From the NCBI GenBank assembly GCA_018335755.1, contig JAGXRK010000011.1, forward strand, positions 62,001 to 126,000: a stretch of 64,000 nt of DNA, written 5' to 3'. Numbering within the stretch: the first letter of the stretch is position 1; every line of letters begins with the position of its first letter. This DNA is from Ignavibacterium sp. (GTDB lineage Bacteria; Bacteroidota; Ignavibacteria; Ignavibacteriales; Ignavibacteriaceae). Positions 21,013-40,659 of this stretch are shown here, in pieces. The notes beneath the pieces are model-generated. The model worked only from the letters and a program-made list of their open reading frames with translations, was not told the DNA's origin and did no database searches. The position numbers were made by a program, and so were the translations under genes.

Positions 21013-23418
21013 ATGATTGGAAGTATTGTACTAACCGCGGCACTTGTACTAAGCATCATCGCTATGGTGATGTACTATCTTACATTCAGGGGATATAAAA
21101 ACACACTTAATTATGCACGCTTGTCTTATCACGCAATGGCAATACTGGTTATTGTCGGTTCAACTTTATTATGGCACGCGTTACTGACACATCAATATCA
21201 GTATAAGTATGTTTATAGTTACAGCAACGGACAGTTAAGCACCGGTTTACTATTCTCTTCTTTCTGGGGAGGGCAGGAAGGAAGCTTCATGTTATGGCTG
21301 CTGCTTACCGCAATAATTGGAATTATTCTTCAGTCGTATTCATCAAAGCGCAGCGATCTTGAACCAAGAGTTATGGCAGTATTTACTATTGCCACATCAT
21401 TTCTTTTAGTGATGGTTTCGCCCTGGTTCAAAAATCCTTTTGAATATATATGGGCACATCCGATATTCATTAACATTCAGGACATAAACCCTCAGTACTT
21501 AAGTATGCCTTTCCTTCAGAACTTCTTCTTCTCTGATCAGCAAGGCGGACAAAGCTTTGTAAGAATGAGTACAGAACTTTATAGTGTTCTTTCTGCTCAG
21601 GGAATTGCGGTTAACAATTTTATTATTGATGGACGAGGTTTGAATCCACAGTTACTCAACTGGTGGATGCAGGTACATCCTCCTGTGCTGTTTATAGGTT
21701 TTGCAATGGCAACAGTGCCTTTTTCATTTGCTCTAGCCGCAATGATGAAAAATGAATATAAAGACTGGATACGTCAGGCGTTTCCGTGGGTCTTAGCAGG
21801 CACAGGAGTGTTAGGCTTGGGAATAATGATGGGCGGATACTGGGCTTATGAAATGCTTGGATGGGGCGGTTACTGGGCATGGGATCCTGTTGAAAACTCA
21901 AGCTTAATTCCCTGGCTAATAGGTGTTGCATCAATTCATACCTTGCTTGTTCAGAGGAGGAGTCAGCAAGGCGGCAATTCCGTTGGCCGTTATGCCAAGA
22001 CTAATCTTATTTTGTGCATATTGACATATGTTTTTGTTTTATACAGTACATTCTTAACCAGAAGCGGAGTGCTGGGAGATGCATCTGTTCACTCATTTGT
22101 TGATCCGGGAATGCTGGTTTATTTGTTCCTGCTGATTTTTATAGGATCGTTTATCTTATTAGGATTTGGTGCTTTAGCTTACAGATGGAAAGATCTTAAC
22201 GCAAAGCTTCCTGAAGACGAGAATCTTCTGTCTCGTGAACTTTCATTATTCACTGCAGCAGTTGTCCTTGGCGCATCAGCTTTAATAGTTTTGGTTGGAA
22301 CATCAGCGCCTATTTATGGACAATCCGTTGATACCTTCTTTTATGATGAAATGCATCTGCCTATTGCAATTATAATCGGGTTCCTGAATGGATTAAGTCT
22401 GCTTATCAAATGGAAGAAAACTTCAACACAGGAATTACTTAAGAGTTCAATATTCGCTGCGTCAGCAAGTGTGGTGTTAACAATAATCATAGTAGTTTTA
22501 AGCGGAATGAGTAACATAATGATGATTATTCTTACTCTTTCAAGCTCATTTGCTCTAATTGTCAATACTGAAATAGCAGTTAAGATAGTAAAGAATAATA
22601 TGAAGATGCTTGGCGCTTACGTTGCGCATATAGGAATTGCGTTATTCTTTCTTGGTGTTATCGGTTCAGCCGCATACAGCGAGGAAGTTGATCTCGATCT
22701 TGTAAAGAATAAACCAGTACAGGCATTCGGATATGAAATGACTTTCACGGGTTATCAGCCAATTGAAAATAATACCAAGTATGCTTTTAACATTGAATTG
22801 AAAAAAGGAGATAAATCCTATAATGCTGCTCCGGTAATGTACATAGCTGAGTTTAACAACAGTCTTATGCGCGAACCGGCAATCCTAAGCTTCTTTACAC
22901 GCGATGTTTATTTTACACCAAATGGTTATGAAGAAGGCGACAGCACTGCATCAGGTGAAAGTTCTGTTGTTAGTTTGCAGCGCGGCGCATCAACTGAATA
23001 TGCCAAGACAAAAATTACATTTGTGGATTTTGATTTTCCTGCAGAAGTGCGGGATGCTATGATGAGCGGAGCCGATTTTGAAATAGGCGTTAATCTTACT
23101 GTTGAATCTGAAGGCAAAAAGCAGAATACAAGGGTAGCAATGCAGAATAAGGGTGGTGAGCGACTTCTTACTGCGGCGGAGTTAAAAGATGTGAATATCA
23201 AAATACAGCTCAGCAATCTTGATGCAACCGGCAATGTCGATTTAGCGCTATCTTCTCTTGATGGAGTTGCAATTGATCCGACTGAACCAAAGGAAGAGAT
23301 TTTTTCAGTTTCTGCAAGCATTAAACCATTTATCAGTCTTGTATGGATAGGAGTTGTTGTAATGGTTCTTGGGTTCTTTGTAGCTGTAGGTAGAAGATTG
23401 AAAGAGTCATTAGTCTAA
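21013..23418 (+). CDS. ccmF: CcmF, cytochrome c haem lyase subunit
   Basis: An 801-residue polytopic membrane protein. The WWD motif WGGYWAWDPVENSSLIPWL is at about residues 286-304, and the N-terminal LSYHAMAILV and WHALLTHQYQYKYVY blocks carry conserved histidines. CcmF, normally with CcmH, attaches haem from CcmE to apocytochrome CxxCH. It is at the long end of the family owing to a C-terminal periplasmic domain (residues 560-770) before the last membrane segment. A terminator follows at 23442. A second, shorter CcmF is encoded at 48861-50987. Confidence 0.93.
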   Translation: MIGSIVLTAALVLSIIAMVMYYLTFRGYKNTLNYARLSYHAMAILVIVGSTLLWHALLTHQYQYKYVYSYSNGQLSTGLLFSSFWGGQEGSFMLWLLLTAIIGIILQSYSSKRSDLEPRVMAVFTIATSFLLVMVSPWFKNPFEYIWAHPIFINIQDINPQYLSMPFLQNFFFSDQQGGQSFVRMSTELYSVLSAQGIAVNNFIIDGRGLNPQLLNWWMQVHPPVLFIGFAMATVPFSFALAAMMKNEYKDWIRQAFPWVLAGTGVLGLGIMMGGYWAYEMLGWGGYWAWDPVENSSLIPWLIGVASIHTLLVQRRSQQGGNSVGRYAKTNLILCILTYVFVLYSTFLTRSGVLGDASVHSFVDPGMLVYLFLLIFIGSFILLGFGALAYRWKDLNAKLPEDENLLSRELSLFTAAVVLGASALIVLVGTSAPIYGQSVDTFFYDEMHLPIAIIIGFLNGLSLLIKWKKTSTQELLKSSIFAASASVVLTIIIVVLSGMSNIMMIILTLSSSFALIVNTEIAVKIVKNNMKMLGAYVAHIGIALFFLGVIGSAAYSEEVDLDLVKNKPVQAFGYEMTFTGYQPIENNTKYAFNIELKKGDKSYNAAPVMYIAEFNNSLMREPAILSFFTRDVYFTPNGYEEGDSTASGESSVVSLQRGASTEYAKTKITFVDFDFPAEVRDAMMSGADFEIGVNLTVESEGKKQNTRVAMQNKGGERLLTAAELKDVNIKIQLSNLDATGNVDLALSSLDGVAIDPTEPKEEIFSVSASIKPFISLVWIGVVVMVLGFFVAVGRRLKESLV

Positions 23419-26798: not shown

Positions 26799-26976
26799 AA
26801 TATTTATTATTGCAGCGGGCAACTTAAGTGCATTAAGTCAAAGAGAGAAATCTATTGTGATGTAAGGCAATAAACAATATCCTGCGGAAACTGAAAGATT
26901 TACAGCAATAAAAGTGTTAAATAACTTGACAAATAGGGTATGTAGGGTTATTTTTGGTCTCCAAATTGGAATACAT

Positions 26977-27019
26977 TCCGCGATAGCTCCCCCGATAAAT
27001 CGGGGCGGCTGTTAACCGG
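26977..27019 (+). pseudogene. Broken tRNA-Asn copy A with inserted palindrome
   Basis: TCCGCGATAGCTC at 26977-26989 is identical to the 5' end of the intact tRNA-Asn at 27464. The D-loop and anticodon-stem 5' strand are missing and replaced by CCCCGA-TAAA-TCGGGG at 26990-27005; CGGCTGTTAACCGG (anticodon arm with GTT) resumes at 27006. Nothing of the T-arm or 3' acceptor follows. It cannot form a tRNA. Confidence 0.8.
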
Positions 27020-27048
27020 AAAATTTATAAAATGGAAAAATTTAATAT

Positions 27049-27109
27049 TCCGCGATAGCTCAATGGTGGAGCATTCGGCTGTTATCCCGACAAAGTCGGG
27101 ATGCAAGTT
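27049..27109 (+). pseudogene. Broken tRNA-Asn copy B with inserted palindrome
   Basis: Bases 27049-27084 match the first half of tRNA-Asn up to CTGTTA in the anticodon loop. TCCCGAC-AAA-GTCGGGA at 27085-27101 then takes the place of the anticodon-stem 3' strand and variable loop, and TGCAAGTT of the T-arm follows before similarity ends. It is not functional. The palindrome is of the same type as in copy A and downstream of glyS. Confidence 0.8.
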
Positions 27110-27436: not shown

Positions 27437-27463
27437 TAAATTGATTGAGAATATATTATACAT

Positions 27464-27535
27464 TCCGCGATAGCTCAATGGTGGAGCATTCGGCTGTTAA
27501 CCGAAGGGTTGCAAGTTCGAGTCTTGCTCGCGGAG
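27464..27535 (+). tRNA. tRNA-Asn (anticodon GTT)
   Basis: The cloverleaf is complete: acceptor TCCGCGA (27464-27470) with TCGCGGA (27528-27534), D-arm starting GCTC, anticodon stem TTCGG/CCGAA around CTGTTAA with anticodon GTT, and T-arm GCAAG-TTCGAGT-CTTGC. CCA is not encoded. The antisense serine recombinase frame runs through its 3' half, so the gene is the likely integration site of the element to its right. Confidence 0.95.
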
Positions 27536-29116
27536 CACTAAGGGATTTATGGTGTGTTTATCACTGTAAGTCCCTTTTTTTATTGATACTTGCGCAGGTT
27601 CGACCCGACCTTTTTTCACTCTTTTACCCTTAACGGAACTTGAAATATCTTTTAGTAGAGAAAGTGGCTTTTCAAATTGAATTTCAAGTTTTCGATCTTT
27701 AATTAAGAGGTTCGACCCGATTGAGCTTAAAATGATTCTTTTCTCTTCAACAGTTGCATTTTGAAATGCAGTAGCTGCGACACTACCAAACTTCAATAAC
27801 TCTTTTACATTAGTTACAATATTATTATTAGACTTTTCAAACTCATCAATTATTAATTTCAGTTCTAGCTCCCGATTTTTATACTCTGATCTTTTACTAA
27901 TAAATTCTTCCTCTGAAATAAGATCACCCAATTTTAATTCCATCAGTTTGTTGAACTTCTTTGACAAATTACTTAACTCTGTTTTATGAGTCTCTATGAA
28001 ATCCTTATTTTTCTTGTTATCACTTTCAACATCATTCTCAATAACATCTATTGCAAACTGAATGAACTCTTCAGGTATTGTAATAGTTCTAAGGTAATCA
28101 ACAATTTGTTCCTCCAATATTTTTACTTCAACTGTTTTCTGAGAGCAGTCTTCTTTTTTTCTTTTAGTACAACTGTAGTAAGTGTAGTTGTGAACATTCC
28201 CATTTTTCTGATTCTTTACTTTATCCTCAGCTGTAATCATTGCACCACATTCGCCACATCTGATCAGGCCAGTGAATGAAAAAACCTTTGATTCCGGTTT
28301 TGGATTTTCATTTTTAGCTAAAAGCTTTTGTATCCTATCATATTCAACTTTGGTAATCATTGGCTCGTGTTTACCTTTTATCCAGTTCCCACTTCCTTTG
28401 GGGTATTCATAGTAGCCATAGTAAAAGGGATTTCTAAGAATCTGATAAATAGTTGCTCGCCCGACACTTCTATTAAATCTGTTTGTTAAACCAAGCTCTT
28501 TAGCAGCTTTGTCTATGACTTGAGATGGTAGATAAGTGCCACTAAGCATCCAATCAAAAATCTTTCTTGTCATTTCAAATCGTGCAGGGTCCTTCATCAT
28601 TTCCTTTTCACCTTTTCTCTTAAGAGGATTGTGAAGGTAACCTAATGGTGGTTGCGCAGGATACCATCCTCTTTCAGCTTTAGCTTTTAATCCACGCTGA
28701 GTGTTTTTACTGAGATCCCTGATAAATTGATTAGCCATCCCTTGCTCAACGCTCATTAGCAGAACGTTATCCTCCGGATAATAACTTCTATCGCTGCATT
28801 GGATATGTTTAATAATTGATTTTTGCAACATCCAACTTATCGTACCAAAGTCAACAGGATTTCGAAATAGTCGATCGGTTTTCCAACATATAATTCCATC
28901 AGCCTCTCCGTTACCAATTCTCTCAAGCATTTTATTAAACACTGGACGACCTGGTGCTTTAGCTGATTTAGCTTCTGTAAGAATATCGACTACTTCTAAT
29001 TTTCTGTCTTCAGCTATTTTTTTTAATACATCAATTTGCGAAGATATTGATTCAACCTGTCTGTCTTCTGATTCTGAAGATTTTCTTGCATATACAAAAT
29101 ATTTTGTCTTTATCAT
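27497..29116 (-). CDS. Large serine recombinase (integrase)
   Basis: A 539-residue large serine recombinase. The resolvase domain carries the catalytic serine in YARKSSESEDRQVESISSQ, with arginines in the KTDRLFRNP and LSKNTQRGLKAKAERGW blocks. A recombinase domain (about 165-280), a zinc ribbon (CGECG ... YYSCTKR ... C, 285-335) and a coiled-coil region (345-430) follow. These enzymes integrate and excise elements between short att sites. The last dozen residues (LREQDSNLQPFG) are read from the antisense strand of tRNA-Asn, and the stop lies in the anticodon loop, so the natural C-terminus was altered when the element joined the tRNA. AGGAGG lies just before the ATG. It is preceded by a short companion gene. 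Confidence 0.93.
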   Translation of the reverse strand: MIKTKYFVYARKSSESEDRQVESISSQIDVLKKIAEDRKLEVVDILTEAKSAKAPGRPVFNKMLERIGNGEADGIICWKTDRLFRNPVDFGTISWMLQKSIIKHIQCSDRSYYPEDNVLLMSVEQGMANQFIRDLSKNTQRGLKAKAERGWYPAQPPLGYLHNPLKRKGEKEMMKDPARFEMTRKIFDWMLSGTYLPSQVIDKAAKELGLTNRFNRSVGRATIYQILRNPFYYGYYEYPKGSGNWIKGKHEPMITKVEYDRIQKLLAKNENPKPESKVFSFTGLIRCGECGAMITAEDKVKNQKNGNVHNYTYYSCTKRKKEDCSQKTVEVKILEEQIVDYLRTITIPEEFIQFAIDVIENDVESDNKKNKDFIETHKTELSNLSKKFNKLMELKLGDLISEEEFISKRSEYKNRELELKLIIDEFEKSNNNIVTNVKELLKFGSVAATAFQNATVEEKRIILSSIGSNLLIKDRKLEIQFEKPLSLLKDISSSVKGKRVKKGRVEPAQVSIKKGTYSDKHTINPLVLREQDSNLQPFG

Positions 29117-30976: not shown

Positions 30977-31672
30977 CTATTTTTTCTCCTTTTGTTTATT
31001 TATTAAATCTAATAGATCTTTTGGATGCTGAAAGTCTGGATGGTTAGAAACTAATTTTTTGCAGATCTTTTCCGCACTATTTATCTTATTGTTCAGATAG
31101 TAATTATATGCTTTTCCATAGAGAGCTATTTTATCATCTGGATGTACCAGCAGTACAGTATCATATATTTCATTCGCAATACCATAAGCACCCAACTTAC
31201 TGTAGCAATTTGCCCCACCTATTGCCGCGTGAGTTGCCTGGTGAAAATTCTCATCACTACCTAGTGCCACTGTATAGCTTCCTAATGCATTAAGTATGAG
31301 TCCTTTATTCTCCTGATACTCGGCGTATTGATCATACACTTCAAAATCTGCTTTACCTAACGCTATCAAATGCTCCAGAGTTTTAATATAAAGTTTATTA
31401 TCTCCAGTCTGATCGTATAACCATGCTTTATACTTAAGCGCTTGAGTATCCTCTGGATCGATGTCTAGTGCGTTTAGTACATAGTGCAACGCTTTAGCAT
31501 AATCTTTGCGACGAAAATGAATATGAGTCAAGGCCTTCAGTACTACAATGTCCTTTCCATCAAATTTATTTAGTAATTCAAGGATTGGTAACACTTTATT
31601 GTGCGGTTTGGTATCAATATCATCCAAAACTTTATTAAGAGTTACTAGATAGTTTTCATTTGTTATTTTCAT
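30977..31672 (-). CDS. Cytoplasmic TPR-repeat protein
   Basis: A 231-residue protein with TPR motifs such as KDYAKALHYVLNALDIDPED and GAYGIANEIYDTVLLVHPDD. It is the first gene of the three-gene unit that continues with the second TPR protein and the 228-residue protein. The structured intergenic module described at 31751-31923 ends 79 bases upstream of its start codon, on the same strand. Function unknown. Confidence 0.75.
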   Translation of the reverse strand: MKITNENYLVTLNKVLDDIDTKPHNKVLPILELLNKFDGKDIVVLKALTHIHFRRKDYAKALHYVLNALDIDPEDTQALKYKAWLYDQTGDNKLYIKTLEHLIALGKADFEVYDQYAEYQENKGLILNALGSYTVALGSDENFHQATHAAIGGANCYSKLGAYGIANEIYDTVLLVHPDDKIALYGKAYNYYLNNKINSAEKICKKLVSNHPDFQHPKDLLDLINKQKEKK

Positions 31673-31750
31673 AAAATTTCCTTTTTAGTTAATAATTGAA
31701 TATTATTTGTATCAATTAGTAGAGTCAATGAACTATTGGTAATAAAAGAG

Positions 31751-31923
31751 GTCCGATGTTATTAGTGTGGCAGGAACTAATTGTGCCGTCCTAGGCTTTC
31801 GCCAACATCGGACCAAAACATTAGTCGGCCCAACTAATAAACATCGCTGGACCTGGTTATATTCTTAAAGAGGGGAAATGAGACCCTTGCCACAGAATAC
31901 TACTACCATTATAGTTTTGTGGC
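31751..31923 (-). ncRNA. Structured module 1 (pseudoknot domain plus two hairpins)
   Basis: Plus-strand coordinates are given. P1 pairs 31751-31760 with 31804-31813 (10 perfect pairs). Inside, ATTAGT 31761-31766 pairs with ACTAAT 31776-31781; its loop segment GGCA 31769-31772 pairs with TGCC 31784-31787, a crossing pseudoknot; GGC-TTTC-GCC 31794-31803 is a mini-hairpin, GAAA loop on the minus strand. CGGCCCA 31826-31832 faces TGGACCT 31848-31854. GCCACA 31889-31894 pairs with TGTGGC 31918-31923 around ACTACCATTATA (31902-31913). The same order recurs at 32582 and 34789. The minus strand is the likely RNA because neighbouring genes read that way. Confidence 0.6.
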
Positions 31924-31951
31924 AAAAAAATAACGGCTTCTATATATGAAG

Positions 31952-32040
31952 GGTCAGTCTGATAGTAAGGAGTAGGAACTATCTATACTCCGTCTTTGGC
32001 GTTCACCACATCACTGACCTAATTAAAATTTAACGGCCCA
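31952..32040 (-). ncRNA. Structured module 2 (pseudoknot domain)
   Basis: P1 pairs GGTCAGT 31952-31958 with ACTGACC 32013-32019. GATAGT 31961-31966 pairs with ACTATC 31978-31983. GGAGTA 31969-31974 in the loop pairs with TACTCC 31986-31991, six perfect crossing pairs. TGG 31997-31999 and CCA 32006-32008 close the mini-hairpin. CGGCCCA follows at 32034-32040. An alternative helix, GACCCTT 31882-31888 with AAGGGTC 31949-31955, would compete with P1, so two exclusive folds are possible. Confidence 0.6.
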
Positions 32041-32140
32041 GGAAATCAATCTGAGCTTAATTATATTGCTTATGAGAAGGCGGTAATCCATACCTCTTGT
32101 CACACAACATATCTACTCTAGAAGTAAGTTTTATTACGGG

Positions 32141-32398
32141 CTAACTTTTCGGTTTAATAAAAAATATTCGTTCGTAACCTATTCTTGCCAATTCATTCAA
32201 GTCAATCCCTAATAAAGTGGCTTCCGCTTCGCCCGGCCATAGACCTGTCCATCTTGCAAATTCTTTGTCGTGCCCTTCGCAATCGCAAGTCAACCTTTGT
32301 CCGCCACAAACAGAACATCTTTCAACGTCACAATTTTCTTTATGTATTTCTCCGGGCTTTGCTCCACAATCGTGGCATATTTTTAATCCTGGTAACAT
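32141..32398 (-). CDS. Small cysteine-rich zinc-ribbon protein
   Basis: An 85-residue protein. Cysteine pairs KICHDCG, ENCDVERCSVCG and CDCEGHD suggest one or two zinc ribbons, followed by ARWTGLWPGEAEA. The pattern 'C-x-x-C-G-x-x-P-G-x-x-H-x-x-x-C-D-V-E-R-C' is widespread in bacterial and phage genomes, without a known function. The start at 32398 is chosen over the longer frame (to 32509) because GGAGAACTAAA lies just before this ATG and the extra N-terminus is not protein-like for the family. Confidence 0.75.
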   Translation of the reverse strand: MLPGLKICHDCGAKPGEIHKENCDVERCSVCGGQRLTCDCEGHDKEFARWTGLWPGEAEATLLGIDLNELARIGYERIFFIKPKS

Positions 32399-32581
32399 TT
32401 TAGTTCTCCTTCTATTTCGCCTGTAAAAAATTAACCCGCAACTCAGAAGACTGCAAGAATAGTTCAGGCTTTGTTTATAAATTATGTTAGTTAAATTTCT
32501 CAAGTTCATCTTTCTGTTACTTTCAGCTTGTTAGTTGCCAAGCTGTTAGTAGCCTCACCTCTAGAGCTTTTTAAATAAGAG

Positions 32582-32767
32582 GGCCAGTGCCGATAGTAAG
32601 GGATCGGAACTATCTGGATCCCGTCATGGGCTTTCACCACATCACTGACGCATTAAAACTTTTCGGTAAGGGTAAACCCTTCCTGGACCTAATTATTATG
32701 TGTGTCAATTAAGGCTGTATTTACGCAACCGATCTACTACATAATAACTACCACTGAATTAAGTAGA
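32582..32767 (-). ncRNA. Structured module 3 (pseudoknot domain plus two hairpins)
   Basis: P1 pairs CAGTG 32585-32589 with CACTG 32643-32647. GATAGT 32592-32597 pairs with ACTATC 32609-32614. GGGATC 32600-32605 in the loop pairs with GATCCC 32617-32622. Compared with module 2, the loop bases differ (GGAGTA against GGGATC) and the partner changes to match, which is compensatory change supporting the pseudoknot. TGG/CCA (32627-32629, 32637-32639) close the mini-hairpin. A hairpin AAGGGT...ACCCTT ends in TGGACCT (32684-32690). TCTACT 32733-32738 pairs with AGTAGA 32762-32767 around AACTACCA. It fills the gap between two small genes. Confidence 0.6.
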
Positions 32768-32772
32768 TATCA

Positions 32773-33171
32773 TCAACTAGCATTAATCAATCTGTCTTTA
32801 TAATTGCCTAGTGCGCTCTCTTTAATCTCTATCATCTTTTCTTCAACCTTTCGGACATATTTGGGATCAATTTCATCGATGAAAGTAAAGAGATATGCTT
32901 GCTCATTTATTTTATATTCATCTTCTTCTATCAGATCCAGGACAGATATAATCAGATCGTGGGTAATTTGATGTCTATCTTTACCTTCAAATGCATAAAC
33001 ACCCTGCACATCATTGTCCTGTACCTCTCTATCCGTTTTCCAAAATTTCATAGTGCCCCCACTATTTTTTTGAACTCCTAAAATATTTTGACCCTTGAGC
33101 AGTATCTGAAAGAAAGGTTCTTCATAGGGTGGTTGTGTTATAAACATTGTACTAAATAAAGGAAATTTCAT
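32773..33171 (-). CDS. Orphan 132-residue protein of the element
   Basis: A soluble, acidic-to-neutral protein with a strand-rich first half (PFFQILLKGQNILGVQK) and a helical C-terminus (PKYVRKVEEKMIEIKESALGN). GGAG lies nine bases before the ATG at 33171. Flanked on both sides by structured intergenic sequence. I do not recognise the family and no catalytic motif is visible. Confidence 0.65.
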   Translation of the reverse strand: MKFPLFSTMFITQPPYEEPFFQILLKGQNILGVQKNSGGTMKFWKTDREVQDNDVQGVYAFEGKDRHQITHDLIISVLDLIEEDEYKINEQAYLFTFIDEIDPKYVRKVEEKMIEIKESALGNYKDRLINAS

Positions 33172-33257
33172 AAAATTTCTCCTGTTTGAATTTTTATAAA
33201 TGTGTTAATTATTAATCATAGCGTAAAATGAAAAACATAAGTTGAGATTCCACAGCT

Positions 33258-33317
33258 TTATATACCAAATGCTGAACTAGCACCTAGTCTGAAAGTAACT
33301 TTTGTATTTCTTGACAT
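33258..33317 (-). CDS. Possible 19-residue peptide
   Basis: ATG at 33317, preceded by TTAGGAAATTAAAA, opens a 19-codon frame reading MSRNTKVTFRLGASSAFGI and ending TAA. The ribosome-binding site is reasonable and the peptide is basic. It stands alone in a 197-base gap. Chance occurrence is quite possible. Confidence 0.3.
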   Translation of the reverse strand: MSRNTKVTFRLGASSAFGI

Positions 33318-33368
33318 TTTTAATTTCCTAATTAAATTGAGGCGGGTTATCCCCACCCCTTGTTTAAA

Positions 33369-33731
33369 TTATTCAAGTATTACCATCTTGGGAAAGAATG
33401 GCCTACTTCCATCCAAATTAATTGCATCCATCACTATAACATCTTCCTCAACAGTTGCATCGTACTCGAATTGATAAACATAAGGTTTACCAGGTATCAC
33501 TTTTTTTATTCTATCAACTTTGAAAGTGAAGAATTTTTCGTATACCTTAAAACCTGTATTCTGATCAACATCAAATACGCATGCACCTACCTTATCTGTA
33601 TTAAGGGAATATCTAAATGCTGCCTGCCAATTAATCGTATCTGGACGATTTAATAATTGGTCTATCCACTTATCTGCATCCTTGTAACCAGGTTGAAGAG
33701 TGTATAATAAAGGGATCAAGTTTGAGTTCAA
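33369..33731 (-). CDS. Orphan protein of the element with an ideal Shine-Dalgarno
   Basis: A 120-residue soluble protein, rich in beta-strands (KVGACVFDVDQNTGFKVYEKF, PYVYQFEYDATVEEDVIVMD). The sequence AAGGAGGTGATC (minus strand, 33746-33735) is the full complement of the usual 16S rRNA 3' end. It places the start at TTG 33731, eight bases after AAGGAGG, rather than at the GTG (33740) that lies inside the Shine-Dalgarno itself. Strong translation is expected. Family not recognised. Confidence 0.65.
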   Translation of the reverse strand: MNSNLIPLLYTLQPGYKDADKWIDQLLNRPDTINWQAAFRYSLNTDKVGACVFDVDQNTGFKVYEKFFTFKVDRIKKVIPGKPYVYQFEYDATVEEDVIVMDAINLDGSRPFFPKMVILE

Positions 33732-33734
33732 AAC

Positions 33735-33746
33735 GATCACCTCCTT
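33735..33746 (-). promoter_or_regulatory. Full-length Shine-Dalgarno AAGGAGGTGATC
   Basis: The 12 bases match the complement of the canonical 16S 3' tail. This decides the TTG start at 33731 and shows that the element uses Shine-Dalgarno initiation. Confidence 0.75.
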
Positions 33747-33892
33747 GAACTCGAAGGGGTCCAGAACATACTGGAATTGAAGAGCTTACCACTCTTATAA
33801 TCATAATTTTTCTGAATTACTTAATGACTTGGAATGACAAATCATCAAATATTATATCCATTCTTTTCTTTCCTTATAAATGTGGGAATGAT

Positions 33893-34045
33893 ATTAGGTC
33901 CACTAAAATGTCCGGCCCACACCCTACTTGACTTCACGCCTAATGTGGGCCTAATTGTAAGTAAATCTTTAAGGTCCAATAGGTCTCCTAGCCTTCAAAC
34001 CTTTGCTACTTGATTCACATACAACTACCGTCCTGGATTAGTAGC
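33893..34045 (-). ncRNA. Structured module 4 (two hairpins, no clear pseudoknot domain)
   Basis: GGCCCACA 33914-33921 pairs with TGTGGGCC 33944-33951, the module's CGGCCCA/TGGGCC hairpin in an extended form. Further along, GCTACT 34005-34010 pairs with AGTAGC 34040-34045 around a loop containing AACTACC. This is the same order and spacing as the last two hairpins of modules 1, 3 and 6. Confidence 0.5.
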
Positions 34046-34070
34046 ATACTCAGGCAGCTTTGTAAAATTA

Positions 34071-34200
34071 GAGGTTCAGGTAGTGGATAGAAAGTAGGTA
34101 GAAGCACCACCATGTCCATATTTCCTACTCAACCTGACCTCAGGGCAAAATGATGGGTGGCAGAGCCATCTTTGCCATCCTAGCTTTCACAACACGGACC
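34071..34200 (-). ncRNA. Structured module 5 (H-type pseudoknot plus pseudoknot hairpin)
   Basis: GAGGTTCAGG 34071-34080 pairs with CCTGACCTC 34133-34141 with one bulge. Inside, GTGG 34083-34086 can pair with CCAC 34107-34110 while AGTAGG 34093-34098 pairs with CCTACT 34124-34129, a crossing arrangement. The segment TGTCCATATTTCC (34113-34125) is identical to one at 35959. A second unit follows: GATGG 34152-34156 with CCATC 34166-34170, loop GGCA 34159-34162 pairing with TGCC 34173-34176, then AGCTTTCA, matching module 1. Confidence 0.5.
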
Positions 34201-34355
34201 CAGGGAGTTATATCTGATTAGAATATAATGGAAAGCAATTCGAGCCATTATAAGAGTGTGACCAACTTACAACATCATTGTAAAATCTGAAGGATTTTGA
34301 TATAGAGGGTTCAAAGAAAAAATGTTAGATCTTTAAATATTTTTGAGCTTTAAAA

Positions 34356-34745
34356 TTAATTTTGGTTATTATTTATAATAATTTTGCCTGTTCTAATTTC
34401 TTGGCCATTCATAATATTAATCTCTTCTTCAAATTCACCAGTAGAAAAGATTTCAACAACTTCGAGGTTATAGAAATCGACCTCTTTACCTAATTCTGCA
34501 AGGTAAGCAGAATCTTTTTTAGCAGTCATCCAGACAGCTTTTGCAGCATCCGCTGTTTTTGAAACCTCATCGTACAGTACGAGTTTGAGAGCAAACTCAC
34601 TAGGTAAACTAGGAATGTGAGTTGACATTCCGTAAAATTTCCGAATCGAATCCTCCAAAATCATATCCAGATATTCATCTGCATAATCAGGATCTTTCGG
34701 AATGGCAAACACAGCTTTAACACTAAGACTTTTATTTTTTCCCAT
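34356..34745 (-). CDS. Orphan 129-residue protein of the element
   Basis: A soluble protein with basic N-terminus (MGKNKSLSVKAVFAIPKD), a helical middle (TADAAKAVWMTAKKDSAYLAEL) and an asparagine-rich tail. GGAAA lies before the ATG at 34745. Structured module 6 ends 44 bases upstream of the start. Family not recognised. Confidence 0.65.
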   Translation of the reverse strand: MGKNKSLSVKAVFAIPKDPDYADEYLDMILEDSIRKFYGMSTHIPSLPSEFALKLVLYDEVSKTADAAKAVWMTAKKDSAYLAELGKEVDFYNLEVVEIFSTGEFEEEINIMNGQEIRTGKIIINNNQN

Positions 34746-34788
34746 TTAACATTTCCTTTATTTTTTATTTGTAAATGATAAAAACATA

Positions 34789-34969
34789 GGACTGATATTG
34801 TAGCGTGAACCAGAGCCCGGCAGCAGCTACTATAGCCTTTCTCTTGGGATGGTCATATCAGTCCATTTAAATTAAGCGGCCCACTCTTGAGGATGGACCT
34901 TATTATGTTGTGGGGAATCGTGGATTTTTTGCCACTGACAACATAACTACCATTATAACTCGAGGTGGC
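34789..34969 (-). ncRNA. Structured module 6 (P1 domain plus two hairpins)
   Basis: P1 pairs GGACTGATAT 34789-34798 with ATATCAGTCC 34855-34864, ten perfect pairs. GTAGC 34800-34804 pairs with GCTAC 34826-34830, and CCAGAG 34810-34815 in its loop can pair with CTCTTGG 34841-34847 with one bulge. CGGCCCA 34877-34883 faces TGGACCT 34894-34900. GCCAC 34931-34935 pairs with GTGGC 34965-34969 around ACTACCATTATA (34946-34957), identical to the loop word in module 1. The module stands 44 bases before the start of the minus-strand gene at 34745. Confidence 0.6.
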
Positions 34970-34994
34970 AGTTACAACAGCTTTGAAGATAAGA

Positions 34995-35166
34995 GGACTG
35001 ATGTCCTGGTCACCCGCAATATTCCCAGGTCTACGGGTTCAAAATTGTTTTCGCAACACATCAGCCAAAAATATGCGGTCCGACTAGTGATTCTTAATCC
35101 GTGTGGCGGGATCACTTGAGGCTAATAGTCTCTGGATTACTCGTAGAGCTTTCGCCCGGTCAGACC
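34995..35166 (-). ncRNA. Structured module 7 (two pseudoknot domains in tandem)
   Basis: First domain: CTGATGT 34998-35004 with ACATCAG 35058-35064; CCTGG 35005-35009 with CCAGG 35025-35029; loop ACCCG 35012-35016 with CGGGT 35034-35038; TTG/CAA mini-hairpin at 35045-35056. Second domain: GGTCCGAC 35077-35084 with GTCAGACC 35159-35166 (one mismatch); AGTGAT 35086-35091 with ATCACT 35111-35116; loop TAATCC 35095-35100 with GGATTA 35134-35139; GAGCTTTCGCCC 35146-35157. Sequence differs from other modules but the order of helices is the same. Confidence 0.6.
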
Positions 35167-35312
35167 ATCAATTCGCTACAGAATGAAATCAATACTCCCG
35201 GTCATCTGTATTTTACTTTGATATAGATGAGCTATCACAGAGATATAAAAGACCCTTCTATTAATTAATGGGAAAGAAGTGAAGATCTTTTTAACCTGTT
35301 AATGCGGAGTCT

Positions 35313-35720
35313 TTAATTATTTCTAGCAATTGTGGATAAATTTGCTCCGATTTTTAAATAACCTAAAAAAGGACCATATGTGGGCAGGCGATTCAAAGTA
35401 AACTCACCTTTGCATAAAACTTCTTGTACTTCGAGCCTATAGAAGTAATGAAAACCTAATAAACATTTTTCATCGAAGTAATCAAAACTCGTTTTTACAA
35501 TAGCTGCCCTTATTTGTGAACCTTTAATTGAATTTGGGAGCGGAGCGGTATATAAAATTGCCATAGTTTTTGGAAGCAAGTGATTATTTGTCCCATAATT
35601 CCTAATGATTACCTCTGTATAGTTGAAGCGTAATGTGTCTTTGAGTAAAGTAAGGTCCTCATCCGAGCAAATATCAAGACCACTATATGCCTTATAAGTT
35701 TTTGTTGATTCAGTATGCAT
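35313..35720 (-). CDS. Orphan 135-residue protein of the element
   Basis: A soluble protein with no recognised domain; strand-rich in the middle (LLGFHYFYRLEVQEVLCKG) and glycine-rich near the end (YGPFLGYLKIGANL). GGAG lies nine bases before the ATG at 35720. It is flanked by the 71-base direct repeats on its upstream side and by module 7 downstream. Confidence 0.65.
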   Translation of the reverse strand: MHTESTKTYKAYSGLDICSDEDLTLLKDTLRFNYTEVIIRNYGTNNHLLPKTMAILYTAPLPNSIKGSQIRAAIVKTSFDYFDEKCLLGFHYFYRLEVQEVLCKGEFTLNRLPTYGPFLGYLKIGANLSTIARNN

Positions 35721-35835
35721 TTTTATCTCCTATTTGTTATCGAATAAATTAGAAATCATTTACAGCTTGGAGTAAAGTAAATAAACCTTATTCTGTTCTT
35801 AAGTCCATCTACCGCCAGGGATTACTCCCGCCGGA

Positions 35836-35906
35836 ACCTATTAAAATCTGTAGTGTAGTTTTCCCCCGTACATATTAATGGGAAAGAAGAGCAGATAATA
35901 TTAACC
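35836..35906. repeat. 71-base direct repeat, copy 1
   Basis: Identical to 36005-36075. It starts ACCTATTAAAATCTG and ends with GATAATATTAACC. A shorter, diverged piece (ATTAATGGGAAAGAAG and following bases) occurs near 35262-35296. The two copies flank structured module 8. Confidence 0.85.
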
Positions 35907-35916
35907 AAATATTCAG

Positions 35917-36005
35917 TCCCAGCCGTGACGTTAGTCTTGCGGTGGAAGCAGTCACGTCTGTCCATATTTCCGATTGACCGTTCAGTAGGTTTACTACCGC
36001 TGGGA
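35917..36005 (-). ncRNA. Structured module 8
   Basis: TCCCAGC 35917-35923 pairs with GCTGGGA 35999-36005. CGTGAC 35924-35929 pairs with GTCACG 35951-35956, and TGGA 35943-35946 in the loop can pair with TCCA 35961-35964. TGTCCATATTTCC (35959-35971) is identical to part of module 5. A further small hairpin GTAG/CTAC occurs at about 35985-35997. Confidence 0.5.
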
Positions 36006-36075
36006 CCTATTAAAATCTGTAGTGTAGTTTTCCCCCGTACATATTAATGGGAAAGAAGAGCAGATAATATTAACC
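36005..36075. repeat. 71-base direct repeat, copy 2
   Basis: Exact copy of 35836-35906. The perfect identity in an otherwise diverged intergenic region suggests a recent duplication or active maintenance. The remaining 76 bases before the sigma-like gene's stop show only AT-rich sequence. Confidence 0.85.
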
Positions 36076-36151: not shown

Positions 36152-38065
36152 TTACATTTCAGTTAATAATTCCTTTAATTCTGATTCTTGGGATAATCTA
36201 ATTAAGATTTTATTTACTCTTTTCGAAACTGCAGGTATGGAAATTTTAAGTTTTTTCCCAATCTCTTCATAGGGTTCCTTTTTAATTAAGTGCTCGTATA
36301 GCAATTCTTGTTCTTCTGCATTACAGTATTTTTCAATTATATCTCTGAAAAAAAATTCTTTAAAATTAAAATTAATTGATTTTTTTATATCAACACCAGG
36401 TTTTTTAACAGACATCGTATTATAGTTAATCTTATCTGTTTCAGTTTTTGAAGTGTCCTCTTCCAATACAGAAAAACTCTTAAAATGTCCCGAGAGATTA
36501 AGCATTTCACTCTCAGGTTCATCAGAGTCTATTTCAATATCTTTTAAATCAATTTCTTCATATTTAGAAATTTCACTTTCTTTTTCGTTTTTCTCCACTT
36601 TGAATGTATCAAGATCTTTTTCATCCCAAGATTTATTTTCCATGAATTGATCTACTACGAATCTTTTTTTGTACTCTAAATTCTGTTTACGCTCGTTCTC
36701 TTTTGACCGACTTAAACTTAGCCAGAATACATAAAATTTAAGAAAAGATAGAAATAACCGTACATTTACTAATTTAAGATCGATATCATTAATTTTATGA
36801 AGTTTAAAGACTGAAGAGAGCAAAAAGGTATATAGGTTAAGATTTTTAAAGTTAAGATATTTTAATAAAAGTGGATCAAATACTGGAGTTCTGTAACCGA
36901 GATATGGTGTACCTATATGCATTAGAATAAATAACCTTTTTTCTGGCTTAGTGAGGTTTTCGTTCTTATTTAATTCATCGAAAGTTTTTTTTGCCCATTC
37001 TCTATAACAACGTCGGAATAACATTTCAATTTCTAAATTAATTTGATCAACCATTCCTTGTGTACTGGAGAACTCATCATTGATATACACGAGAACTAAA
37101 AAACTATTCAATGGCTCAGGTTGTGAATGGTAGTGCTTGATTCCATCCATCCAATTCTGAATCTTTTCTATTTTCTCTTTACTTTTCTTTCCAACAAGAA
37201 ATTCATTCAACGATAGAAGCGCTTCCATTACTATTTTATTAAGCTCTTCATTGGTTACGACTCTTTGTGTCTTACTGTCCTTATTTTCTTTTAATTCAGG
37301 TGACTGTTGCTCATTCTGAGGATATCTGGAAAGCATCGATTTTACTGTTTTTAGTACCTTACCGAAATCTGTTGATCTTAACTCTTCGAAAATCGGATCT
37401 TCAGAAAGGTAGTCTTTTAATTCATCAATTTCTCTTTTTGTATATCTCGTTCTAAATTTTTCTTTATTATTCTGAATATTTTCACTAATATTTTGAATAT
37501 TAATTTTCAAAAAATATTGAACGATTTTCTCTAAATAATCTTTGGAAAAACGTATTTGTGTAGGCAATGTTTGATCAATTTCGTCAATTTCATCATATGC
37601 CGCTTCAAAAAATAATTTTTGAACGGAATAGTCGGTCACATCTAAAATTGAATATTCAATTTTTGACTTTACATCTTCCTCTTCCTTCTTTGTAGGCCAG
37701 GTTTTTCCCTGCTTAACAAGTAGTTCCCGTATGAGATTATTATAGTCCATCGAATTTATCTTGAATGTTCGAGTATTCTTTAATGTACTGCGGAGATATT
37801 GACCCTTTACATCAAAATGTGTTGCTCGATAATACTCTAAATAAAAGGTTATATTGAATTCAGAAAATTGATCTGATCCATATGTCTTAAGAAAAGGATG
37901 TAAAAATGATTCCGAAGAAAGAAGTTTTTCCCAATCTGGAATAAAAATTCTAACTTCACCGGAATTTTGAAGACCTGTTTCCTTCTTAAAGCCTTTCCTA
38001 AAATCAAGATCGAGTGTCTCAATTATTAAACCTGTGCCGTCGCTAAATGTTATTTCTTTTTCCAA
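36152..38065 (-). CDS. Large protein with a C-terminal sigma-region-4-like HTH
   Basis: A 637-residue soluble protein. The last 80 residues (from FKEFFFRDIIEKYC) contain LLYEHLIKKEPYEEIGKKL followed by KISIPAVSKRVNKIL, a helix-turn-helix of the sigma-70 region 4/LuxR type: 'Y-x-E-I-G-x-x-L-x-I-S-x-x-A-V-S-K-R'. The remaining 550 residues are helical and unrecognised; no region 2 motif is evident. The apparent start is TTG 38065. As the first gene of the leftward arm it may be a transcription factor that controls the small genes and their structured leaders. That is inference from position and the HTH. Confidence 0.7.
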   Translation of the reverse strand: MEKEITFSDGTGLIIETLDLDFRKGFKKETGLQNSGEVRIFIPDWEKLLSSESFLHPFLKTYGSDQFSEFNITFYLEYYRATHFDVKGQYLRSTLKNTRTFKINSMDYNNLIRELLVKQGKTWPTKKEEEDVKSKIEYSILDVTDYSVQKLFFEAAYDEIDEIDQTLPTQIRFSKDYLEKIVQYFLKINIQNISENIQNNKEKFRTRYTKREIDELKDYLSEDPIFEELRSTDFGKVLKTVKSMLSRYPQNEQQSPELKENKDSKTQRVVTNEELNKIVMEALLSLNEFLVGKKSKEKIEKIQNWMDGIKHYHSQPEPLNSFLVLVYINDEFSSTQGMVDQINLEIEMLFRRCYREWAKKTFDELNKNENLTKPEKRLFILMHIGTPYLGYRTPVFDPLLLKYLNFKNLNLYTFLLSSVFKLHKINDIDLKLVNVRLFLSFLKFYVFWLSLSRSKENERKQNLEYKKRFVVDQFMENKSWDEKDLDTFKVEKNEKESEISKYEEIDLKDIEIDSDEPESEMLNLSGHFKSFSVLEEDTSKTETDKINYNTMSVKKPGVDIKKSINFNFKEFFFRDIIEKYCNAEEQELLYEHLIKKEPYEEIGKKLKISIPAVSKRVNKILIRLSQESELKELLTEM

Positions 38066-38721: not shown

Positions 38722-39102
38722 ATGAAATTCGACCCTGATATTACAATCAATGTTGTTAGAACTTGGGATGGTTTGATTAATCCTAGTTTAATCAAATGGA
38801 GTGGTGCAATTAATATTCACCGGAGGGATGCTAAAAGAATATTACAGCGTGAGATATGGAATTCCAGAAAATTTCATAATGATGGTGATGATTTTGTTTC
38901 GATATATATCTCAAGATTCTGGGGAGATGACGAAGGGATAGACTATTTATTACATCTTAAAGACCTGAAAAATGGTGAAACAAGAGTGACACCAATGTAT
39001 GAGATTGAATTTGTTAAGCATTCACATAGAGATGGTCGTAAAAATTATATTGTGTTCAGACAAAAAGATCACCTTCAGAAATTAAAAATAAGTATTAAAT
39101 AA
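38722..39102 (+). CDS. Orphan 126-residue protein, first gene of the rightward arm
   Basis: A soluble basic protein with strand/helix alternation and several tryptophans (RTWDGLINPSLIKWSGA, ISRFWGDDEGIDYLLHL). No known domain is recognised. There is no good Shine-Dalgarno before the ATG, only A-rich sequence. It precedes structured module 9. Confidence 0.6.
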   Translation: MKFDPDITINVVRTWDGLINPSLIKWSGAINIHRRDAKRILQREIWNSRKFHNDGDDFVSIYISRFWGDDEGIDYLLHLKDLKNGETRVTPMYEIEFVKHSHRDGRKNYIVFRQKDHLQKLKISIK

Positions 39103-39103
39103 T

Positions 39104-39254
39104 GGGTGTGGTAACTGCCATTCGTAGCTGAGACTATGAGGTAGCAGCGAAAGCTATGACGGGTTATGATTCTATAACAGGATGTGTATCTGATGTTTCC
39201 CTGGCCCACAGAGACATTAAATTGTCAGCCTCTAAATACATAAGTGCCACACCC
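39104..39254 (+). ncRNA. Structured module 9, plus-strand copy
   Basis: GGGTGTGG 39104-39111 pairs with CCACACCC 39247-39254, enclosing 135 bases. The inner stretch AGCAGCGAAAGCTATGACGGG is close to the minus-strand reading of module 3 (GTGAAAGCCCATGACGGG), including the GAAA loop and the 'ATGACGG' that follows. GTTAT and ATAAC flank GATTCT next. TGGCCCA occurs at about 39203. The module lies 72 bases upstream of the plus-strand gene at 39327, so it keeps its orientation relative to transcription. Confidence 0.5.
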
Positions 39255-39326
39255 TTCTTATTAAAAAGCCTGGCAACTAGTAGCGCTTTCGTATCAATTA
39301 TTTTTAATTTATCATTTGAGGACAAA

Positions 39327-39722
39327 ATGAAACATAAAATAAAATCATTCGAAACTAACAAAGAAAATTTATTTATCGATACCAATCATCCTGACTACAA
39401 ATGGATTAAGAAGCATTACAACGATCTAGATGTTTCAGATTCTGAGCGTGAATGGGCAGATTTTGATGATTCAATTATTGATGTAAAAGTTGGAAAACAC
39501 TCGGTTAAATATATTGCTCCAAATACTTTTCCAAAGCAGGCAACTGAAACCATTGCTATCGTAGGTAAATCGAAAGGGAAGGATTTCATCGTTGATAGGT
39601 TAGTTCATTGTCGTTTTATGTATGATGGTCCAAATACTTATGAGATTTTTGGATTGGTCGACAAGGATAAAACAGAATTTAATAAAGATGGAGTATTAGT
39701 TCTGAAGCAGAAGAAGCTTTAA
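39327..39722 (+). CDS. Orphan 131-residue protein downstream of module 9
   Basis: A soluble protein with an acidic middle (NDLDVSDSEREWADFDD) and strand-rich C-terminal half (HSVKYIAPNTFPKQATETIAI). The frame is open further upstream, but ATG 39327 is preferred because GAGGACAAA lies right before it and the upstream part overlaps module 9. Family not recognised. Confidence 0.65.
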   Translation: MKHKIKSFETNKENLFIDTNHPDYKWIKKHYNDLDVSDSEREWADFDDSIIDVKVGKHSVKYIAPNTFPKQATETIAIVGKSKGKDFIVDRLVHCRFMYDGPNTYEIFGLVDKDKTEFNKDGVLVLKQKKL

Positions 39723-40659
39723 TTATGATCTGCGAAATGCTGTTCGGTTATCGGATTTAATGAGGAGTAGATATTAAAAGTTCCCAGCTATTTAACAGGA
39801 GAGAGGTGTAGAATAGTAATTGTAAAATTATAATAAATCTTTAAACACACCCCAAAATCTAATGCTCAGAGCTCCATACTCATGTTTTAAACCACTTTTT
39901 TACTTGAACCCATGGTTGTGGGCGGCTAAAATAAAATCTCATGACTACGGGCTTCTATTAATGTTTTAAGAATAATCTCTTTCATTATAAAATAAATTGA
40001 AGAGTGCAGGTCAAGTGAAAATGAATTCCTAAAAAATAAAGTGTTAGAAGCTGTTAGGCATTTGTTTAAATTTTAACTTATTTCAAAGGTTACTAACACC
40101 TCTAACAATTTTTTAATTTTACTGGGCGTTACTTAAACCCTTATTGTGCATGGGGTTATAGAGAGCACTAGCAGTATATATACTTTTTAAATATTTAAAT
40201 AATAAATATATATATATACCTTATCGACGATAAGAAAATAAAATAATATATATGGGCTGGATTTAGCCGCTGATTGGGAGGAGGTGTTTTACTCTACTAC
40301 CTTACCTAACCCCTTTAAATACATGCCATTACAAGGATTTTAACCTAAAATCGTTGCTGATTGGACTGCGTTTTTGGATTAAATATGCATGTTTTTTCTA
40401 ACAACAAATGCTAGGAATGTTAGCAGATTTAATAATGAATGTATTCTAATAATTTTTATTTTCATTGTTACTTGACGGCATGCTGAAATTTAAATATATT
40501 GAATAAGAGCAGACAGTATGATGTTTGCTTTGAAAACCTGCAAAAGACCACTTCTAAAACACACCAAGAGACAACCCGAATAATTTACAACCGAAAACTA
40601 ATTTATTAGGAATGCTCTTTCAGTGAGAGGGCATTCCATTTGAAAAATATTTGGAGAAA
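39723..40659. other. AT-rich intergenic region, candidate replication origin
   Basis: 937 bases without a convincing gene. It includes a very AT-rich tract (about 40175-40215) followed by the palindrome CTTATC-GAC-GATAAG at 40220-40234. It lies directly upstream of the DUF5659-like and primase/helicase genes. AT-rich unwinding tract, palindrome and adjacent primase together suggest an origin used when the element is excised; no experimental support exists here. Confidence 0.35.

Follow-up and report, generated by a model that had tools for sequence, protein, structure and literature searches.

The spacers between the orphan genes of an integrated element of Ignavibacterium sp. hold a new family of predicted structured RNAs in an unusual arrangement: one element carries many diversified paralogues, and these are associated with the ends of the orphan genes. 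The element lies in a stretch of 64,000 nucleotides (nt) that we analysed as a whole (hereafter, the window; assembly GCA_018335755.1, contig JAGXRK010000011.1, positions 62,001 to 126,000) and has two divergent arms. The leftward arm, on the minus strand, carries orphan genes in a row and the gene of a 637-amino-acid (aa) protein, and the rightward arm, on the plus strand, encodes the 126-aa and 131-aa orphan proteins and a primase-like protein. Modules are placed on the coding strand in both arms (minus in the leftward, plus in the rightward). An initial annotation had described five pseudoknotted modules in minus-strand spacers; all five were found (m1, m2, m3, e2 and e1), and the family proved larger than claimed, with d1, d2, e3 and f added in the same arm and r1 on the plus strand (Table 1).

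The best modules share one plan, which runs, 5' to 3', from an outer stem (P1, 7-11 pairs) through a mini-hairpin to the strands S1, S2, S1' and S2' in crossing order, and ends with P1'. The mini-hairpin has 3 or 4 pairs and a GAAA loop, and A-N-GACGG or a variant usually comes next. As the initial annotation had it, GAAA is found in most copies (m1, m3, e1, e2 and d1), with GAAC in m2, and the helices GGCA/TGCC in m1, ACCCG/CGGGT in e2 and TAATCC/GGATTA in e1 are all present. Modules d2, e3 and f fit the plan more poorly, and their S1 and S2 boundaries were picked by eye. The units at m1, m2, m3 and e3 have an extra upstream half, in which helices X and Y cross; a GGTCCA/TGGGCC hairpin comes next, in which a U-G pair recurs. 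Two direct repeats of 88 base pairs (bp) each stand on both sides of module f (35819-35906 and 35988-36075); they are 95% identical and look like the upstream half of other units.

In an alignment of nine modules, standard pairs made up 95.2% of P1, the mini-hairpin and S2 (S1 being outside this count), a statistic that leans towards structure since the rows include two near-identical orthologues as well as paralogues of one array and the module ends were trimmed to put P1 in register. Controls on the same alignment gave 73.9% when the 3' letters were shuffled and 19-47% when the partner was slid. Twenty-nine cells were altered on both sides, and the covariation score reached 0.62, as compared to 0.20 in the shuffles and at most 0.17 in the slid controls.

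The upstream strand of S1 pairs better with its own loop than with the loops of other modules, none of 200,000 permutations being as good (p ~5e-6). Between m2 and m3, the most alike pair of modules (72% identity over 94 bases), the crossing helix changes from GGAGTA/TACTCC to GGGATC/GATCCC, and the covariation tests support the earlier description of this swap as compensatory. A third comparison is provided by e2 and its counterparts in the nearest relative of the element, the Ignavibacteriales metagenome-assembled genome UBA8501 (G073): S1 reads ACCCG/CGGGT in e2, ACAGGCA/TGCCTGT in ge2 (locus G073:C11) and TGGA/TCCA in h2 (G073:C18), with two-sided changes at three pairs. Covariation beyond chance, which had been proposed for the family, was therefore found between modules and between loci, in the paired cells, the S1 permutation and the e2/ge2/h2 trio. 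For helices X and Y the true pairing ranks 2 of 120 permutations in each case. U-G pairs outnumber A-C pairs on the coding strand by 24 to 1, an excess that is supporting rather than independent, since the helices were curated on that strand with U-G allowed. The significance of the fold arises from comparison between modules and loci, and not from tests on single sequences; a blind descriptor scan for the pseudoknot topology in single sequences was not significant, and AT-rich shuffles matched as often.

The modules match no known RNA family, as had been proposed. A module was to be assigned to an Rfam 15 family (riboswitches, self-cleaving ribozymes, group I/II introns and orphan motifs among them) if the covariance model reached its gathering score, or else gave a credible result with E ≤10. 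In the window only tRNA-Asn was retrieved, with three chance snoRNA/sRNA matches (E 5-9) in the array region, and the G073 loci gave one tRNA only. No description of such an array came up in the literature searches.

The position of the modules relative to genes is most constant for r1, which begins 0-1 nt past the stop codons of 126-aa family genes in the window, in G073:C11 and G073:C18, and in G075 and G076, two complete genomes of the same family that are identical over the r1 stretch and count once. These loci cover at least three species and proteins down to 31% identity, the latter being the 130-aa protein of G075 and G076 as compared to the 126-aa protein; directly past its stop codon lies an r1-like module that has a P1 of its own, then the hairpin GTCA-GAAA-TGGC and after it a stem. 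The gene after r1 varies, being the 131-aa gene in the window and G073:C11 and a 1580-aa gene in G075 and G076. A canonical terminator (AAAAAGCCTGG..CCAGGCTTTT) and then a long non-coding region come after r1 in G073:C18. Other structured blocks begin 4, 14 and 18 nt past stop codons, and the blocks are biased towards the upstream stop codon in general (p ~0.006; eight spacers, two of them orthologous). The sequence past P1 is T-rich (50% vs 31% in spacers, p = 6e-7), with no clean T run. Start codons follow the last module of the spacer at distances of 43, 77 and 182 nt, in agreement with the 44-184 bases reported initially. Overall, this placement fits elements that would be attached to the end of the upstream gene better than it fits leaders.

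Among the relatives of the element, locus G073:C11 carries the same array at an identity of about 93-97%, without the 123-aa and 132-aa genes, and the deletion ends fall in or beside modules, with one breakpoint inside d1. At L015:3964-4182, as compared to window positions 32583-34155, the two genes are replaced in G073:C11 by about 136 bp, made up of a new unit together with an m2/m3 chimera, and the breakpoints lie within module cores. An excisionase-like gene and a putative tyrosine recombinase gene (L015:7251-8598) stand in G073:C11 at the place of the serine recombinase of the window, so that different integration genes carry the same array. G073:C18, found via the 131-aa protein, is a third, paralogous element whose spacers carry h1, h2, h3 and r1. 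G075 and G076 have a related core, apparently in a slot orthologous to G073:C18. In G075 (L077:4601-9343), parts of the product of the 1580-aa gene that follows its module r1k resemble a radical-SAM/Gp37-type protein and a primase-helicase, which are separate genes in L016.

Wider searches added nothing to this set. A covariance model of m1-m3 (R1) gave only chance matches in 294 genomes of the class, apparently within coding sequence (e.g., L018 and L033). A second model (R2) retrieved two genomes over the order, those of the window and G073, with one chance match overlapping an open reading frame of CBS-domain-like type, and a sample of 395 genomes from the phylum gave no more. Viral contigs, searched with DNA patterns and proteins, yielded no relative (17 pattern matches hold no module), phage and plasmid collections gave no match, and the 637-aa protein had the G073 copy as its sole match in GTDB contigs.

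The comparison establishes, at the level of predicted RNA, the structure with its crossing helices, the coding-strand placement, sequence diversification with the fold kept constant, and, for r1, a position anchored at the stop codon of a single gene family. The explanation that we tentatively favor is that the modules may be cis-acting RNA elements, 3'-anchored or intercistronic, that travel as gene-plus-module cassettes and have a putative biochemical role. Such a cassette would consist of a coding region and one or more pseudoknotted modules starting at or soon past its stop codon. Transcribed within the mRNA, the modules would fold into compact, knotted 3' or intercistronic domains and keep neighboring messages apart. 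A module could mark the 3' end of the upstream message or shield it from 3'-5' exonucleases; it could aid termination; or it could halt ribosomes and processing between cistrons. If it is mostly shape that matters, sequences would therefore drift fast and recombination could exchange modules. A cis element in a 3' untranslated region (UTR) or between cistrons would be expected to hold one position with respect to the stop codon ahead of it, as r1 does.

Several observations weigh against this explanation. The nested folding energy is unusual only in spacer A (z = -4.6), the other module spacers ranging from -0.1 to -2.1. In G073:C11 a single C-to-A change in each of gm1, gm2 and gf breaks an S1 pair, and the m3 copy joins a 5' half of m2 type to the 3' half of m3 in a chimera with mismatched S1 strands; S1 may be dispensable, or the G073:C11 copy may be decaying. 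This copy contains Ns and has lost the ATG of its 126-aa gene, making decay or misassembly likely. In spacers D, E and F the structured block is 76-154 nt away from the stop codon. Although the modules would belong to the upstream gene, e3, h3 and r1k end 43, 43 and ~23 nt ahead of the next start codon, near enough to affect the downstream gene too. Finally, tandem modules in one spacer exceed what a simple 3'-end barrier would need.

The same short distances are an argument for leader RNAs, the first hypothesis of the initial annotation, by which a module in the 5' UTR of the next gene would control its translation or transcription as a protein-binding operator or as a riboswitch-like switch of S1 and S2. 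Downstream of e3, h3 and r1k there is indeed no clear room for a separate promoter, and S1 and S2 could be alternatives, as the nested folds of m2 and m3 form S1 without S2. However, r1 stays with the upstream gene across five loci while the downstream gene differs, which weakens the leader hypothesis. Several spacers also have 77-182 AT-rich bases past the last module, enough for a promoter, pairing with ribosome-binding sites was not seen by eye, and a ligand-binding aptamer would keep its core, in contrast to these strongly diversified tandem copies. We consider leaders doubtful, and a riboswitch in particular is not supported, with few unpaired positions conserved across modules and r1 tracking the upstream and not the downstream gene.

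Somewhat less probable still are trans-acting small RNAs, processed from 3' UTRs or transcribed alone, that could for example bind proteins of the element or the host. Compact knotted tandem domains, U-rich 3' tails and the movement of the e2-type module independently of genes would fit such RNAs. Promoter-like sites, however, are at shuffle level, no promoter of their own standing out, and no common constant unpaired region is present that could serve as a seed. A ribozyme, also raised in the initial annotation, was not borne out, since known ribozyme families were unmatched and we saw no large conserved unpaired set of the kind that a catalytic core needs.

TnpB with its 3' guide RNA and the type III toxin-antitoxin pairs offer precedents in arrangement for another possibility, namely that every small orphan protein has a working partner in the pseudoknotted RNA encoded at its gene's 3' end, the pairs forming a swappable, co-diversifying ribonucleoprotein set in which the RNA fold is constant. 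The one-to-one association of r1 with the 126-aa family is in line with this, as are the small size and fast divergence of the orphan proteins, which show weak hints of common ancestry. Against it, no nuclease or toxin family was found among the array proteins (Pfam, PADLOC, NCBIfam and PHROGs), and there is no guide or repeat-like segment; AlphaFold models of two orphan proteins were too poor to judge (predicted local distance difference test scores of 41 and 51). We regard such pairing as unlikely; if true, it would constitute a new kind of cassette system.

The modules might also be DNA recombination sites for cassette exchange, akin to integron attC, which we consider very improbable. An orphan-gene array with a structured element past each stop codon, the absence of two genes in G073:C11 with breakpoints at or in modules, and the chimeric modules would be explained. 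Yet GTTRRRY/RYYYAAC ends are absent on inspection, the recombinase of the window element is a serine recombinase, and the G-U bias and GAAA loops indicate RNA; homologous recombination of similar modules, such as m2 and m3, accounts for the chimeras, and Ns are near in the G073 assembly. Chance structures in AT-rich spacers, for which the blind scan and most folding-energy z-scores could be cited, are hardly credible, being contradicted by independent compensatory changes across modules and loci.

Comparison with known systems defines the family further. Like the RNAs of type III toxin-antitoxin systems (ToxI-like), the modules are tandem H-type pseudoknots beside a small gene on a mobile element; this identity is not supported, as no ToxN/CptN/TenpN-type endoribonuclease occurs among the array proteins in the same four collections, the modules differ strongly instead of forming near-identical direct repeats (72% in the best pair), and they follow genes of many families. 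Integron attC cassettes likewise form an orphan-gene array with an imperfect palindromic element just past stop codons and with cassette gain and loss. Unlike these, the modules have RNA-type features and showed no R'/R'' boxes at their ends by inspection, no attC model being run; no integron integrase turned up in the window, and the G073:C11 recombinase, a 357-aa gene product, is putatively an ordinary tyrosine recombinase. Stop-codon readthrough stimulated by r1 was also rejected, as the reading frame of the window stays open for only a few codons beyond the stop (by eye).

Flavivirus exoribonuclease-resistant RNAs stand in tandem. They resemble the modules in being pseudoknotted, sequence-diverse under a shared fold and active in untranslated regions, and they stop a 5'-3' exonuclease (PMC5760640). 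A block of that type is unlikely here because the RNase J model TIGR00649 gives nothing above cut-off in G000, the genome of the window (53 bits against a cut-off of 400; above cut-off in 9 of 14 controls). The guide RNA of TnpB (compare PMC11061315) is similar as a structured RNA that starts at the 3' end of the gene for its protein, and differs in that no nuclease and no guide segment occur here. Orphan candidate structured RNAs from comparative genomics (e.g., PMC2864571) share the conserved fold, the intergenic location and the lack of a known ligand or function, and differ from the present family by its tandem diversified paralogues in one element, crossing helices and absence of an Rfam match.

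About a dozen paralogous RNAs in one element thus keep a double-crossing fold with nearly every pair exchanged. The result is a natural series of mutants of a new RNA architecture, and it raises the question of why a mobile element sets such an RNA at the stop codons of orphan genes.

Table 1. Positions in the window of modules, upstream halves of units and genes of the element
Feature	Position	Strand	Description
Module m1	31750..31814	-	P1 GGTCCGATGTT/AACATCGGACC; mini-hairpin GGC-GAAA-GCC; S1 GGCA/TGCC crossing S2 ATTAGT/ACTAAT; from sequence and covariation
Upstream half u1	31827..31925	-	X TTGCCAC/GTGGCAA and Y GTATTCT/AGAATAT crossing; then hairpin GGTCCA/TGGGCC
Module m2	31952..32019	-	S1 GGAGTA/TACTCC; S2 GATAGT/ACTATC
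Upstream half u2	32035..32126	-	X ACTTCT/AGAGGT; hairpin GCTCAG/CTGGGC; begins 14 nt past stop codon of upstream gene
Module m3	32583..32649	-	S1 GGGATC/GATCCC; S2 GATAGT/ACTATC
Upstream half u3	32665..32768	-	X ATCTACT/AGTAGAT; Y TTATTATGT/ACATAATAA; begins 4 nt past a stop codon
Module d2	34071..34141	-	P1 GAGGT-CAGGT; S1 AGTAGG/CCTACT; weaker assignment
Module d1	34143..34201	-	GAAA mini-hairpin; S1 TGGCA/TGCCA; S2 GATGG/CCATC; P1 poor in window
Module e3	34789..34864	-	P1 GGACTGATAT/ATATCAGTCC; S2 GTAGC/GCTAC; S1 assignment weaker
Upstream half of e3 unit	34878..34971	-	X TGCCAC/GTGGCA crossing Y TTATGTTGT/ACAACATAA; hairpin GGTCCA/TGGGCC
Module e2	34996..35066	-	S1 ACCCG/CGGGT, 7 pairs, among them U-G and A-U; covariation with ge2 and h2 of G073
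Module e1	35077..35166	-	P1 GGTCTGAC/GTCGGACC; S1 TAATCC/GGATTA; S2 AGTGAT/ATCACT
Module f	35916..36006	-	P1 GTCCCAGC/GCTGGGAC; S2 CGTGAC/GTCACG
Module r1	39104..39255	+	rightward arm, 1 nt past stop codon of 126-aa gene; homologues L014, L039, L077, L078
Serine recombinase gene	27497..29116	-	next to tRNA-Asn, element end
231-aa TPR protein gene	30977..31672	-	downstream of m1
Orphan gene	32141..32509	-	likely start 32400
132-aa orphan gene	32773..33171	-	missing in G073:C11
123-aa orphan gene	33369..33740	-	missing in G073:C11; terminator-like hairpin 33359-33339 after stop codon, no module
129-aa orphan gene	34356..34745	-	
135-aa orphan gene	35313..35720	-	
637-aa element protein gene	36152..38065	-	C terminus weakly sigma-70 region-4-like
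126-aa orphan gene	38722..39102	+	r1 adjoins its stop codon; family conserved in G073, G075, G076
131-aa orphan gene	39327..39722	+	likely real start 39327, not 39156

The r1 structure occupies the coding strand ahead of the 131-aa gene, which therefore most likely starts at 39327. Downstream of this gene lies a region of 930 non-coding bases with inverted repeats (39723-40650), ahead of the primase-like gene, and a replication origin is possible there. The small orphan proteins p129, p135, h112 and h118 (32400-35720; L039:9599-11637) show weak mutual similarity and may form one fast-diverging family. One end of the element adjoins a tRNA-Asn gene, with the serine recombinase gene beside it. 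Three tandem copies of the 5' part of tRNA-Asn are found by this end (26971-27087 and 27455-27502), the first of only ~20 bases; they are perhaps scars of past integrations. The whole element is bracketed by two related CcmF-like cytochrome biogenesis genes (21013-23418 and 48861-50987).

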